From assembly GCA_018261735.1 (NCBI GenBank), contig JAGTRM010000022.1, positions 1 to 64,000 on the forward strand: a stretch of 64,000 nucleotides of DNA. Reading direction: 5' to 3'. The translations under genes and the position numbers were made by a program. Origin of the DNA: Pseudomonadota bacterium (lineage in GTDB: Bacteria > Pseudomonadota > Gammaproteobacteria > Burkholderiales > Chitinibacteraceae). The stretch's first letter is position 1, and the number at the start of each line of letters is the position of its first letter. The notes under the pieces were generated by a model, which saw nothing but the letters and a program-made list of their open reading frames with translations, was not told the origin of the DNA and did no database searches. This document shows, in pieces, positions 19,210 through 52,131 of this stretch.

Positions 19210-20157
<948 letters not shown>

Positions 20158-47051: not shown

Positions 47052-48023
47052 ATGCGTTATGTCTTGATCGGCACCGGCAATATCAGCAATACCTATGTGG
47101 CAGCGATCGGCAAGATCGACGGCTGCGAAGTGGTGGGCTGCGTTTCGCGCAGCGGCAACCGGCCCAAGTCCGCGCCGCAGATCGAATGCAAGCCGACGCT
47201 GGCCGAGATAGAAACGCCGTTCGATGCGGTGATCATCACCACGCCCAACGGCCTGCATCATGAAGGCGCAATCGAGGCGGCGCGGCTCGGCAAGCATGTG
47301 CTGACCGAAAAGCCGCTCGATATCAGCCTTGCCGCCATGGACCGGATGATCGCCGCGTGCGAAACGGCCGACGTGACGCTGGCGGTGGCGTACCAGCGCC
47401 GCACCAACCCGGACAATCTCGCTTTGAAGCAACTCATCGATCAGGGTGCGTTCGGGCGCATCTACGCCGCGGATCTATCGTGCAAGTTCTGGCGCGACCA
47501 GGCGTATTACGACAGCGGTGCCTACCGTGGCGGCTGGGAAATCGATGGCGGCGGGCCGTTCATGCAGCAAGCTTGCCACAATATCGATTTTTACCTGTGG
47601 CTGTTTGGCATGCCGGAACAGGTGAACAGCCACTATGGCACGTTCATGCACGCTATCGAAGTCGAGGACCACGGCGCGGCGCTGCTGAAATATGCCAACG
47701 GCATGATCGGCACCATCGTCGCCTCCACGGCGACGAAGCCCGGCTTCCCGGCGCGGCTGGAAGTGCACAGCGAAAAAGGCGCCTTCATCACGCTGGACGA
47801 TGCCATCAGCTTCTGGGATATCGAAGGGGTGCCCAATCCGGCCAGGCCCACCACGACCAACCGCGGCGAGGGCGCCAGCAGTGCCGCGGTCACGGATACG
47901 GCACGCCACGAAGACATCCTGCGCGATTTCGAAGCAGCGGTACGCGATGGCCGGCCGCCCTTGGTCGACGCTCACTCGGCACGGCAAACCACGGAGTTCA
48001 TTCTGCAGATCTACGGACGCTGA
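47052..48023 (+). CDS. Gfo/Idh/MocA-family oxidoreductase
   Basis: 323 aa. N-terminal Rossmann fold YVLIGTGNISNTYVAAIG, EKPLD with the catalytic Lys (residues near 95), and a C-terminal beta-sheet domain with GGWEIDGGGPFMQQACHNIDFYLWLFG containing the expected Asp/His pair. Oxidises or reduces a sugar or sugar derivative with NAD(P). It follows iclR and a repeat element, with a strong AAGGAG. It is probably part of the same catabolic island. Confidence 0.9.
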   Translation: MRYVLIGTGNISNTYVAAIGKIDGCEVVGCVSRSGNRPKSAPQIECKPTLAEIETPFDAVIITTPNGLHHEGAIEAARLGKHVLTEKPLDISLAAMDRMIAACETADVTLAVAYQRRTNPDNLALKQLIDQGAFGRIYAADLSCKFWRDQAYYDSGAYRGGWEIDGGGPFMQQACHNIDFYLWLFGMPEQVNSHYGTFMHAIEVEDHGAALLKYANGMIGTIVASTATKPGFPARLEVHSEKGAFITLDDAISFWDIEGVPNPARPTTTNRGEGASSAAVTDTARHEDILRDFEAAVRDGRPPLVDAHSARQTTEFILQIYGR

Positions 48024-48542
48024 GCGAGCGCTTCCGAACGGCTCCTTTGGCAAGGGGGGCGGGGTGCCATGTCCGCGTCGGACATGCCTCGCCCGTGAGG
48101 GGCGTGATGCAGGAACAACGGTCTTCCTTCCTTGGCCTGCATCCGGCTTGCACATGGATTGTGCGCATCGCCAGCAAATGGTGCAGCTTGTCAGGCTCAT
48201 CTTGAGGTTAATGGCACGATCTGCTGACGATTTTTGCTGAATTGAATCGATTGCCGTCTCCGGGTGGGACGCTCTTCCGGGTGTTTTGTATCGCTTCTGC
48301 GCCACGATCATTCTGCCGCATGAGTGAATCAGTGCCGTGTCGACGGACAAACCGATTGCTCAGGTGTCGCAGGAATCCCCATCTTTTTACCAGGATACGT
48401 TGAATTCATTGGGTCGCCGGGATGGCGCACTCCGGATCAGCGCAGCTGTGCTGCGCGCGCAATCCAGGATGTTTGACGGATTTGCAGTTGTCGGTCGGGA
48501 AATGCCGGGCATGTATATTGCTTGAATGGGAATGAGAACTGT
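48024..48542. other. 520-bp intergenic region before the ANTAR-type leader
   Basis: No supported gene. A hairpin CATGTCCG-CGT-CGGACATG at 48068-48086 may end the Gfo/Idh transcript, although no U-run follows. A 62-codon ORF at 48337-48525 has no homologous features. A TATATT at 48514-48519 is a possible -10 for the leader, without a good -35. Confidence 0.4.
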
Positions 48543-48618
48543 TCGGATCAACGGCGATCCGATTCGTTCGAGGACAACGGCGTCCTCTGCGCTTGCGAGC
48601 GCAGGGGACGCTTTTTTT
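48543..48618 (+). promoter_or_regulatory. Predicted ANTAR-protein-responsive antitermination leader (two hexaloop hairpins plus terminator)
   Basis: Hairpin P1: CGGATC (48544-48549), loop AACGGC (48550-48555), GATCCG (48556-48561), extendable by a U-A pair. After an 8-nt linker, hairpin P2: GAGGAC (48570-48575), loop AACGGC (48576-48581), GTCCTC (48582-48587). Both loops have A1 and G4, the conserved bases of RNA targets of ANTAR proteins such as EutV and NasR. The 3' arm of P2 is also the 5' arm of the terminator at 48580-48618, so P2 and the terminator exclude each other. No ANTAR gene is in the window; the regulator would act in trans. The EAL gene starts 18 bp further on. Confidence 0.82.
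48580..48618 (+). terminator. Intrinsic terminator within the leader of the EAL operon
   Basis: A stem of 14 pairs (48580-48593 with 48598-48611, one G-U) with loop TGCG and then seven Ts (48612-48618). It lies before, not after, a gene on its strand, which marks it as an attenuator. Confidence 0.9.
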
Positions 48619-48636
48619 GAAATTTGGAATCCTGTC

Positions 48637-49965
48637 ATGCAAAGCAGATTAAGACGCGAGCAACGAATTGGCCCGCCGCGCCTATGGCAAGACCGTGGCG
48701 GCACGATTTCAGCAATTGAGCCGGCCCCGTGTCTTTCCGCGCTCGACAAGGTTGAGCAGGCAATCGTCTATGAGAATGGCCGCGCGGTGGGCAGTTTTCG
48801 CGGCATGCGGATGGATGGCTGCTTTCAGCCGATCTATAGCTTGCCGCATCGACGCATCGTGGGGCATGAGGCATTGCTGCGCGCGAGCTTGAACAATGGT
48901 GTTGCAGTGCCTCCGCCGCAGGCCCTGGCCGCCGCACAAGGCGAGACTGAGCAGGTCTTCGTGGACAGGCTATGCCGGGCGCTGCATCTGTTCAATTACC
49001 AGACCCATGATGCGCATTCGGACGGCATGACCTGGCTGTTCCTGAACATTTCAACGGCGGTGGTCAGCCAGCGGCAGGATTTTGGCTCTTTTTTTACGGA
49101 TCTGTTGAACCGCGCCCAGTTTCCCGCTCGCCGGGTTGTCGTGGAGATTCTGGAAGGCGCAGTGCCCGATCTGGTTTTGTTGAGCGAAGCCGTGGCGTGG
49201 TACCAAAGCCTGGGCTGCCTGGTTGCGCTGGATGATTTTGGCGCACAAGCCTCGAATATCGAGCGCATCTGGCGCACCTCGCCGGATATCGTGAAGCTGG
49301 ACCGTAGCCTGATCGCGGCCGCTGAGAAATCACCCAAGGCCAGACGCGTCTTGCCCGCGATCGTGGCGTTGATTCACGAAGCCGGTAGCCTGGCCCTGGT
49401 CGAGGGTGTGGAAAACCCGCAGCAATCTGCGATCGCGCTGGATTGCGATGCCGATTTGGCGCAGGGGTTTTATTTCGCTCGCCCCGCGCCTGTTCCGTTG
49501 TACCGGGGCGACGGCGGAATCGCCTCCGTTGCGGACATGCATCTCGCATCCTCCGAGGTCAGCAAGCGCAATTTTCTCGAATCCTATGTGACGGTATTTC
49601 GCCAGGCCGCCCGTGCTGTGCAAGCCGGTCTTGCGCTCCGGAATGCGTGCGCGGAACTGTTATCCATGGACCGCGTTGACCGGTGTTTCCTGATCAACGA
49701 GGCCGGCATCCAGATCGGCGCCAGCGTTTTACCGGCAGGCAAGCAGCCTGCCATTTCCCGCTTCGCTCCCCTGGAGGATGCCGCAGGAATCAACTGGTCG
49801 CGCAGGCCCTATCACTACTGCGCGCTTTCCCAGGCGGGAGAGGCGCAGATCAGCCGGCCATATCTGTCGGTCGCCAATTCACGGTTGTGTGTGACTTTAT
49901 CGATGGCTTTCCGTCAGGGAAGCGAACTTATCGTTCTGTGCTGCGATATCAACTGGGAGGTATGA
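48637..49965 (+). CDS. EAL-domain c-di-GMP phosphodiesterase with C-terminal sensor-like domain
   Basis: 442 aa, cytoplasmic. EAL domain about 60-300: [22 protein letters not shown] (E78), [35 protein letters not shown] and [10 protein letters not shown]. All metal-binding and catalytic residues (Glu, Asn, Glu, Asp-Asp, Lys, Glu, Gln) are present, so hydrolysis of c-di-GMP to pGpG is expected. The C-terminal part (about 310-442, with [22 protein letters not shown]) resembles the Cache/PAS-like tail of YkuI-type EAL proteins and may bind a ligand (inference). The start at 48637 is the first ATG after the terminator; the longer frame would translate the terminator. Its stop overlaps the next start (ATGA). 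Confidence 0.92.
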
Positions 49966-51170
49966 CGAATATGAACCTGATGCTCAATCCGGCAATAGCA
50001 CTGATGCATAGGCTGAAGCTGGGCGGAAAATTTGCTTTGGTGGGCTTGCTGTTCTGTGTGTCGCAAGTCGGGATCTCCGGCGCGGGGCGCTGGGGCAATG
50101 GCTTCTGGGCAGGCATGCTCGAGGCCGCGTCCTGGGCCATCGGCCTTCTGGCGCTCTATCTGTTCTTCGCCCTTTATTGCACCACCGCGGGCGCGGTACG
50201 CGAGCTTTTGCAAACCGTGCAGCGTCTGGCGGAGGGAGATCTTCTGGTGCGCAGTGCGGTGGATGGCCGTGACGAGCTGGCCAAAGTGGCGAGGCGCCTC
50301 AATGAAATGGCGCGGGAAAATGGCCGCTTGATCGCGAACGTGCGCGGCGCGGCGGAGGAAGTCGCCAGTGCCGCCACCGAGCTGGCGACGGCTTCCGGCC
50401 ACGTCCAGAAGGGCGCCGCCGCGCAAAGCGAAATATCCGGTGTCACGGCCGGTGCCATGGAGCAGATCCTGTGCAGTGTCGAATCGGTTGCCGCCAGTGC
50501 CAAGGATACCGAGTTTATTGCCGATCATTCCGAGTCGCTGGTCCAGGACGGGGCGGACGTGGTCGGGCAGGCTGGCGCAGAAATGGACGGTTTGCGTGAA
50601 TCGGTCTCGCATCTCTCGCAACTGATCGGCTCCCTCGGGGTGCGCTCCAGTGAAATTGGCAGCATTGTCGGCGTGATACGCGGCATTGCCGATCAGACCA
50701 ATCTGCTGGCGCTTAACGCGGCCATCGAGGCGGCGCGGGCCGGCGAGCAAGGGCGCGGCTTTGCCGTCGTTGCCGATGAGGTGAGAAGGCTCGCCGAGCG
50801 CAGCAGCGGCGCGACGGCAGAAATCAGCCGGATGATCGAGGCTGTCCGTACCGAGGTCGACGCCATTGTGCTGCGCATGGATGAAAGCCGACTCCAGGCA
50901 GAACGCGGCGTGCATCTCGCCCAACAGGCCGCGCAGTCGCTGGCGGGCATCCGCGATGGCGTGCACCGCACCCGTGACCAAATTTGCTCGATTGCCGCCG
51001 CCGCCAACGAACAAAGCAAAGCCAGCAGTCATGCGGTGAGCAATGTGGCGCTGATTGCCACCAAGGCGCAAGAAAACCATGCCGCCAGCAGCGAGGCGGC
51101 TGCCGTTGCGCGTTACCTGGAAGAGTTGTCTTCAGGGCTGCGCGGGGCCGTGCTGCGTTTCAAAATCTGA
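49962..51170 (+). CDS. Methyl-accepting chemotaxis protein without a periplasmic sensor domain
   Basis: 402 aa. Two TM helices (about 24-39 and 55-75) are joined by only about 15 residues, so there is no ligand-binding domain. A HAMP-like linker (about 76-125) and the signalling coiled coil follow, with the hairpin tip [21 protein letters not shown] and [20 protein letters not shown]. It should dock CheA/CheW. The ATG at 49962 overlaps the EAL stop and has GGGAGG upstream. Its sensing is likely provided by another protein, the next gene being a candidate. Confidence 0.92.
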
Positions 51171-51192
51171 TTGATCGGCAAGGGGAGGCATC

Positions 51193-52131
51193 ATGGCGGC
51201 AATGATTGCAGGAATGGGCGTGGCGTTTGGGGTCGCTTCGGTATTGAATTGGGCGCAAATTCGCCTGGCGCACGAACAGGCTCGCCGCAGGCAACGGGGA
51301 TTGTCCGCCGTGCGGGCCGGTGTGGCCTTGATGACCGCCATGCAACAACATCGAGGGATAGCGGCCGCGCTATTGAACGGTGATCGCGGATTCGCCCCCC
51401 GCCTGGTCGCCAAGCAGCAGGAAGTCGGGCAGGCGATGGCGGCGCTGGATGAGGTCTTGAGCGATGCGCCCGAACTTGCAGGCAGCGGGCGGCGCTTCGC
51501 CTCGATTCAGAAAGCCTGGCGGCAATTGCAGGGCGCCGTGCAGACACTGCCCGCCGAGGCCAGTTATCACAGCCATACCGCGCTGATTCAGCAAATTCTG
51601 TATTTGCTCGGCGATGTGGGTGAACGGGCGGGCCTGCTGGAGCATCGCAGCGCCAGCGTATCTATGCTGGCCGAATCCTTGCTGGTGCGCTTGCCGCTGC
51701 TGGCAGAAAGTATCGGCCAGGCACGCGCCTTGGGGTCGGGCTACGCCGCGAGGGGGAAATGCGGCGCAGTGGGGCGCATTCGCCTTTCTTTTCTGGAGCA
51801 ACGCATGCGCGTCAGCCTGTCCCGCGTCGTCGCGGCGCTGGAGTCCTTCCCCTTGCAGACCCAAGCCGCAGACTGCAGCGACAAAGTTCACGCGCTGCTG
51901 AATGTGATCACCGACCGCATTGTTGGCGCAGAAGAAATCGATCTGGTGCCAGAGGCTTACTTTGCGATTGCTACGGAAGCCATCGATGCCTGCCTGGCGC
52001 TTTGGCAAAAAACTGCTCAGGCGGCCGAGCAGGCCGAGTCGTCGGCCACGAAACCGCGCTTCCAGTTCACGCTGATAACCGGTCTGTTGATGCTGGGGAT
52101 CTCTGCAGGGGCTTCGTGGATCGGGGTCTGA
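51193..52131 (+). CDS. Two-TM protein with a NIT-like (nitrate/nitrite-sensing) periplasmic domain
   Basis: 312 aa. A TM helix at about 5-20, a large all-helical domain (about 30-245), and a C-terminal TM helix at about 290-308. ALMTAMQQHRGIAAALLNGD (HRG 53-55) and LAESIGQARALGSGYAARG resemble the two characteristic helices of NIT domains, found in NasR and in nitrate-responsive chemoreceptors. There is no output domain, so it must signal through a partner. It starts 22 bp after the chemoreceptor with GGGGAGG, so it is the third gene of the leader-controlled operon. The NIT assignment is by motif resemblance. Confidence 0.7.
   Translation: MAAMIAGMGVAFGVASVLNWAQIRLAHEQARRRQRGLSAVRAGVALMTAMQQHRGIAAALLNGDRGFAPRLVAKQQEVGQAMAALDEVLSDAPELAGSGRRFASIQKAWRQLQGAVQTLPAEASYHSHTALIQQILYLLGDVGERAGLLEHRSASVSMLAESLLVRLPLLAESIGQARALGSGYAARGKCGAVGRIRLSFLEQRMRVSLSRVVAALESFPLQTQAADCSDKVHALLNVITDRIVGAEEIDLVPEAYFAIATEAIDACLALWQKTAQAAEQAESSATKPRFQFTLITGLLMLGISAGASWIGV

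Follow-up and report, generated by a model that had tools for sequence, protein, structure and literature searches.

We propose that the short RNA leader at positions 48543-48618 of the window (the whole stretch of DNA analysed here, 64,000 nucleotides) is an ANTAR-type transcription antiterminator, which belongs to the nitrate (NasT) regulon and controls an operon encoding an EAL-domain protein, an MCP signalling protein and a NIT-domain protein. We put the probability of this reading at roughly 88%. Computation has yielded the anatomy of the leader, the mutual exclusion of its second hairpin and its terminator, the covariation of its stems, the co-occurrence with ANTAR genes and the sharing of the leader with nitrate genes, and from these we infer the binding of NasT, the nitrate signal and the effect on motility. 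The switch would be of a known kind, with the EAL operon apparently as a new target, and the comparison of sequences supports this well.

Anatomy of the leader

The leader is composed of two hairpins, P1 and P2, and an intrinsic terminator (Table 1). The first-pass annotation described the hairpins as two 6-bp stems with identical loops, 8 nt apart. The common loop stands, while P1 actually has 7 bp and the gap is 7 nt (8 nt when P1 is taken as 6 bp). The coordinates also agree with its description of a P2 3' arm common to P2 and the terminator, just before the EAL gene: the terminator stem pairs 48580-48593 with 48598-48611, its 5' arm contains the P2 3' arm, the T7 tract occupies 48612-48618, and the ATG of the EAL gene (48637) lies 3' of it. 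Calculated alone, the terminator has a folding energy of -28.6 kcal/mol and P2 of -8.5 kcal/mol. When the folding of the growing transcript is followed, P1 and P2 form first, then the terminator displaces P2 and P1 stays. For the 141-nt stretch around the leader, the folding z value is -3.9.

Table 1 Features of the leader and of the operon behind it, in window coordinates
Feature	Positions	Strand	Details
sigma54-type -24/-12 promoter-like element GGGCATGTATATTGCT	48507..48522	+	2 mismatches to TGGCACGNNNNTTGCW, GG/GC kept
P1 hairpin	48543..48562	+	TCGGATC-AACGGC-GATCCGA, 7 bp, loop AACGGC (A1, G4), C-G closing pair
P2 hairpin	48570..48587	+	GAGGAC-AACGGC-GTCCTC, 6 bp, loop AACGGC, C-G closing pair
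Intrinsic terminator	48580..48618	+	14-bp stem (one G-U pair) + T7; mutually exclusive with P2
EAL-domain protein, 442 aa, predicted c-di-GMP phosphodiesterase	48637..49965	+	Pfam EAL 1.7e-43; aligned to RocR, YkuI
HAMP-MCP signalling protein, 402 aa	49962..51170	+	ATG 49962; ATGA overlap with EAL stop
NIT-domain protein, 312 aa, hydrophobic N-terminus	51193..52131	+	Pfam NIT 6.7e-12

We have also scanned both strands for chance occurrences of two A..G.. hexaloop hairpins 2-30 nt apart, the 3' arm of the second beginning a terminator-like stem with a T-rich tail. With stems of at least 6 bp, the EAL leader is the sole match in the window, and 20 dinucleotide shuffles of the window give 0 matches in total (1 for stems of at least 5 and 6 for stems of at least 4). 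At these two looser settings a single extra site appears in the window, at 19381; its loops are unlike and its terminator is weaker. Scanning the genome with a DNA pattern gave 621 matches (up to 3 mismatches), fewer than the 1392 of the reversed control, and was uninformative.

A coding role of the leader has been considered and rejected. In the window (ORF 48526-49965) and in the relatives G026 and G002 (see below), the EAL frame is uninterrupted along most or the whole of the leader; we take this to be chance, since the ORF of a further relative, G101, starts 3' of the leader.

The operon behind the leader

Aligned with RocR, the EAL protein has the motifs EAL, N, ExxE, DDFG, K, EGVE and QG, the residues of which we take to be catalytic. 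Since its EAL domain carries these motifs, the protein is likely an active c-di-GMP phosphodiesterase. In the following HAMP-MCP protein, a Pfam scan recognised the HAMP and signalling domains and no ligand-binding domain. The third protein matches Pfam NIT with 46.7 bits, above the cut-off of 24.9, and no meaningful relative of it was found in the PDB by sequence, with either the single sequence or a 4-row profile. Its N-terminus shows a hydrophobic stretch followed by arginines, and the protein may thus be a membrane-tethered cytoplasmic domain. A NIT protein in the operon would suit nitrate control.

The gene order suggests that the MCP and the NIT protein could act jointly as a split receptor. 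Such an apparent split chemoreceptor, i.e., an MCP without a recognised ligand-binding domain beside a separate NIT-like protein, is seen in three genera of two families (window 49962-52131; L072, L127). An oxidoreductase gene of the same orientation lies upstream of the leader, with its end at 48023.

Conservation at orthologous EAL operons

EAL proteins of at least 62% identity are found in G026 (same genus), G002 (same family, other genus), G101 (other family of the order) and Pandoraea terrae. The leader is kept at the orthologous operons of G026, G002 and G101 with compensating changes. It scores 62.6-72.2 bits there under the covariance model R1, which was built from nine leaders (four EAL leaders, two nitrate leaders of this genome and three from relatives) and has all three in its training set. 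Besides the window, 3 of the 4 close orthologous operons thus keep both hairpins, A1/G4 and the terminator, with P1 showing only 4-5 uninterrupted pairs. The four EAL leaders, all part of the R1 training set, span two families and three genera, and in all four genomes the terminator is kept closely 5' of the EAL start. An EAL operon that keeps the terminator and loses P1 or A1/G4, which the first-pass annotation had held to speak against the switch, was not seen. Pandoraea terrae, the close orthologue without the hairpins, has no terminator of the leader-type arrangement either.

The gene order EAL, short HAMP-MCP and NIT-like protein is common to the window, G002 and G101; for G026, the contig breaks off within the MCP gene. 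The NIT-like proteins of the window and of G101 share 53% identity, and no Pfam family passed for that of G101 at 0.001. In Pandoraea terrae, the gene behind the EAL gene (64% identical) encodes an MCP whose sensor is a four-helix bundle. The 11 kb read there contained no NIT homologue, and no leader was found before the EAL operon. This species does have an ANTAR gene, and leaders of this type precede its nirB and lie close to a narK-like gene.

Overall, the leader is seen upstream of 4 of 33 EAL genes, the window's included. Counted by locus, it is present at 3 of the 26 loci around EAL genes besides the window, and a further match, with unlike loops, lies in the G025 locus. In G420 (L132 5472-8891), the order is MCP-NIT-EAL, and a sigma54 element is present while no ANTAR leader was found. 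We have also observed a second EAL-MCP family in the same genus (L073, L074, L075), with EAL proteins 40-42% identical, long MCPs and sigma54 elements. EAL/long-MCP paralogue pairs occur in this genome (G000), G025 and G026, with sigma54 elements and no leader. In a Pfam scan, the long MCPs of G000 and G026 matched MCPsignal only, and a related MCP of G088 gave a weak dCache match, below the cut-off.

The leader family across the order

In this genome, R1 scores the EAL leader at 77 bits and two nitrate leaders at 65.5 and 64.5 bits, all three being in the training set; of the 8 matches, the best one after these three has an E-value of about 1. Across the order, matches at E <= 0.001 are found at 90 sites in 81 of the 399 genomes sampled. 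We have read the downstream genes for 87 of the 90 matches, leaving out the two nitrate sites of this genome (already known) and one site at a contig end. Assigned by similarity to reference proteins, these genes are NrtA-like in 58 cases, NarK-like in 12, NirB in 5, a second MFS type in 4, EAL in 3, and a molybdopterin oxidoreductase and a tetrapyrrole methylase in 1 each, with none in 3. For the second MFS type, for the oxidoreductase and for the methylase, these same sites supplied the references, and Pfam supports each. The three downstream proteins without a reference are a MobA-like protein, one with an alginate-export match (weak, below the cut-off) and one with a transcriptional-regulator C-terminal domain. 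Judged by this tally of assigned genes, the leader family is mainly a nitrate/nitrite family, with the EAL operon as an outlier.

P2 with a C-G closing pair is recognised in 82 of the 87 leaders, and A1/G4 in 81 of these 82. Among the 82, P1 shows A1/G4 and 4 or more uninterrupted pairs in 59, a P1-like hairpin has another loop in 13, and no P1 is found in 10; that is, an ideal P1 is recognised in only 59/87.

For the covariation analysis, the 87 leaders were joined by the EAL leader of G026 and by this genome's two nitrate leaders, and all were fitted to the model (alignment A3; 90 matches, 88 distinct rows). In A3, 87.7% of the cells are paired, and changes on both sides of a pair are found in 158 cells, compared with 51 in shuffles. 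They occur in 9 of the 11 pairs among the 88 distinct leaders, which none of 500 shuffles reached. In a MAFFT alignment of the nine leaders with a structure named by ourselves, 7 of 11 pairs show both-side changes (3.1 on average in shuffles, 0/500 as high); counted by further pair types, 3/500 shuffles were as high.

The ANTAR regulator and the nitrate genes

The genome (94% complete) has one detected ANTAR gene, nasT, on contig C36 (C36:79789-80427; L023, G000), with its ANTAR domain at C36:79813-79971; the same search gave 0/14 in control genomes. The protein of 212 aa is a receiver-ANTAR protein (REC-ANTAR; Pfam ANTAR and Response_reg), which by its architecture is of the NasT type. The first-pass annotation had called for an ANTAR gene, especially of the NIT-ANTAR or NasT-like kind. 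A NasT-like one has indeed been found, and a NIT-ANTAR regulator has been discarded, the sole ANTAR protein found being REC-ANTAR.

In the order sample, 188 of 399 genomes have an ANTAR gene. It is present in 80 of the 81 genomes with the leader versus 108 of the 318 others (Fisher p 4.5e-30, kinship ignored), and the sole leader genome without a detected ANTAR gene is 67% complete. Grouped by EAL homologues instead (E <= 1e-70), ANTAR genes are found in 36/48 genomes with and 152/351 without one. Together, the single ANTAR gene, the covarying leader family and this co-occurrence (80/81 vs 108/318) lend good comparative support to the original suggestion of an ANTAR-controlled switch.

On contig C36, nasT lies just upstream of a leader and a gene for an NrtA-like substrate-binding protein. 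Behind these are genes for the permease (TIGR01183) and the ATPase (TIGR01184) of a nitrate ABC transporter; nirB (TIGR02374), with a leader of its own, is found further along. The two leaders, at C36:79481-79572 before the NrtA-like gene and C36:63997-64090 before nirB, are of the same kind as the EAL leader (E <= 2.8e-14, both in the training set). One more nitrate leader, the third, precedes a NarK-like MFS gene (Pfam MFS_1; the NarK name is assigned in the present analysis) and is weak, with 22 bits for Rfam narK and 11.5 bits for R1.

A NasS gene beside nasT was not found in C36:60000-84000, where the NrtA-like protein, encoded behind a leader of its own, is the sole NrtA/NasS-kind homologue found. 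Both G002 and G101 encode, close to nasT, a protein homologous to the NrtA-like one; its alignment lacks the N-terminal part, as expected for NasS. That is, nasT of this genome has no recognisable nasS adjoining it, unlike in G002 and G101, with their shorter NrtA-like homologue.

The putative upstream promoter

Of 86 leaders, 51 have a sigma54-like element (up to 2 mismatches, GG and GC kept) between -60 and +20 relative to the model start, compared with 2.8% of random windows from the same loci. With a cruder GG-N10-GC test the enrichment is slight: 35 of the 82 leaders in which P2 was recognised, against a background of 34%. Allowing up to 3 mismatches, such an element is near 9/9 of the EAL/MCP starts examined. 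Transcription of the operon would start at the sigma54-type promoter just upstream of the leader. No NtrC-type site was recognised upstream of the leader in the window, and NtrC-like palindromes are perfect only in G002 and Pandoraea terrae. In Burkholderia cenocepacia, nasT and a gene with an EAL domain are reported to be transcribed at a lower level in an ntrC mutant (PMC5491218).

Proposed mechanism and alternative readings

We envisage that transcription would start from the sigma54-type promoter, with P1 and P2 predicted to fold first. Without active NasT, the terminator would take the P2 3' arm and transcription would end. Nitrate or nitrite would free NasT from its inhibitor, and the freed NasT would bind both hexaloops and preserve P2, letting the polymerase enter the operon. 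A nitrogen-limited cell meeting nitrate would then make a c-di-GMP phosphodiesterase and a chemotaxis/nitrate-sensing pair alongside the uptake and reduction genes; that is, nitrate may directly switch on motility as well as uptake genes. If true, this would connect the nitrate regulator with c-di-GMP turnover and chemotaxis directly at the RNA level, and would be a simple mechanism for a nitrate-dependent change between sessile and motile states. ANTAR-associated genes are mostly related to nitrogen management, according to the abstract of PMC3369931. A decrease of c-di-GMP with nitrate is reported for one Burkholderia species (PMC5524735); the main text of that report makes no mention of ANTAR.

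A bolder extension, for which we would put the odds somewhat below even, is that the nitrate-gated RNA switch and the nitrogen-limitation (sigma54) promoter control a whole sense-and-move module. In it, an MCP lacking its own ligand-binding domain would have the membrane-tethered NIT protein as a detached sensor, the phosphodiesterase would lower c-di-GMP, and nitrate would set assimilation and motility via one ANTAR protein.

On the other hand, the leader could work by ANTAR antitermination with an inducer other than nitrate or nitrite (an orphan NasT, with constitutive or nitrogen-limitation control). The lone NrtA/NasS-kind homologue in C36:60000-84000, being the NrtA-like protein behind a leader, fits such control, as does the fall of the nasT transcript in the Burkholderia cenocepacia ntrC mutant (PMC5491218). 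However, the other leaders mostly serve nitrate genes, NasS may lie outside C36:60000-84000, and G002 and G101 have the NasS-like shorter homologue near nasT; we regard another inducer as unlikely. EutX/Rli55 RNAs titrate EutV, and the main product of this ANTAR target could in the same manner be a short terminated RNA that titrates NasT, rather than control of the EAL operon. The EAL leader is the best-scoring R1 leader of the genome (77 bits, with R1 built partly from this leader) and a short RNA of roughly 80 nt would carry both hairpins, but the terminator is kept closely before the EAL start in four genomes and the NIT protein in the operon suits nitrate control, which makes titration as the main role very improbable. 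Finally, the leader might be an intrinsic terminator only, e.g., that of the upstream oxidoreductase gene, whose read-through this very stable structure could block, with paired loops of no regulatory role; we reject this reading as scarcely credible, because P1, which a terminator does not need, covaries through compensatory changes and ANTAR genes co-occur with leaders of the same kind, which precede nitrate genes elsewhere, and the sigma54 element moreover sits between the oxidoreductase gene and the terminator.

Comparison with known systems

The antiterminator reading places the leader beside NasR-nasF of Klebsiella oxytoca and NasT-nasA of Paracoccus denitrificans. These share with it paired A1/G4 hexaloops with a C-G closing pair, leader attenuation, nitrate genes as fellow targets and a NasT-like ANTAR regulator. 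They differ in the target, which in the window is predicted to be the EAL-MCP-NIT operon. The targets of EutV and NasR, as described, also pair hexaloop hairpins with an overlapping terminator. SELEX with NasR gave A1/G4 hexaloops closed by C-G (PMC7496416), and NasT is reported to bind the nasA leader when nitrate is present (PMC3795266).

In Bradyrhizobium, such hairpins are found at only some NasT-dependent genes, and narK, which has them, rose in a nasT mutant (PMC6759348); the leader thus does not guarantee simple activation. Chemotaxis and EAL are unmentioned in the main text of that paper. Among the papers listed in our literature search, mostly open-access main texts, we saw no ANTAR leader described for an EAL gene. 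The legend of Figure S3 of Ramesh et al. 2012 (PMC3369931) mentions a putative ANTAR RNA for a methyl-accepting chemotaxis gene, which likewise makes a chemotaxis gene a possible ANTAR target. That RNA, as the legend describes it, overlaps the ribosome-binding site, and it serves there as an example of possible translation control, not attenuation. The first-pass annotation had considered the target class unusual, and the rarity of EAL genes behind the leaders (3/87) agrees with this; the class is nevertheless less odd than it had seemed, because the operon also encodes a NIT (nitrate/nitrite-sensing) protein, and a chemotaxis-gene case is already in print.

Two Rfam families resemble the leader. 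The model of the narK RNA (RF03032) reads as a sigma54 element, a P1 with the loop AACGGC and a P2-like stretch, which it leaves unpaired, unlike the leader of the window. It matches the leader end to end (window 48508-48586) with 31.9 bits (E 1.6e-4, 301-base search), below its gathering score of 43.2 bits, and by this curated score the leader is not a narK member. At a loose threshold, RF03032 also matches 13 of the 14 control genomes, so weak narK matches alone prove nothing. The consensus of P11 (RF00625, a Pseudomonas sRNA) has GGACAAAGGCGUCC and then a terminator-like stem, as in the window leader. RF00625, described as an sRNA, scores 18.7 bits on the leader against a gathering score of 70. 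The leader model further suggests that the narK RNA and P11 may be, at least partly, ANTAR antiterminators, often behind sigma54 promoters. At E <= 0.1, RF03032 and/or RF00625 match 11 of the 20 leader loci tried, all below the gathering scores; the loci concerned, besides the leader of the window, are L180, L181, L185, L186, L207, L213, L216, L229, L237, L244 and L262.
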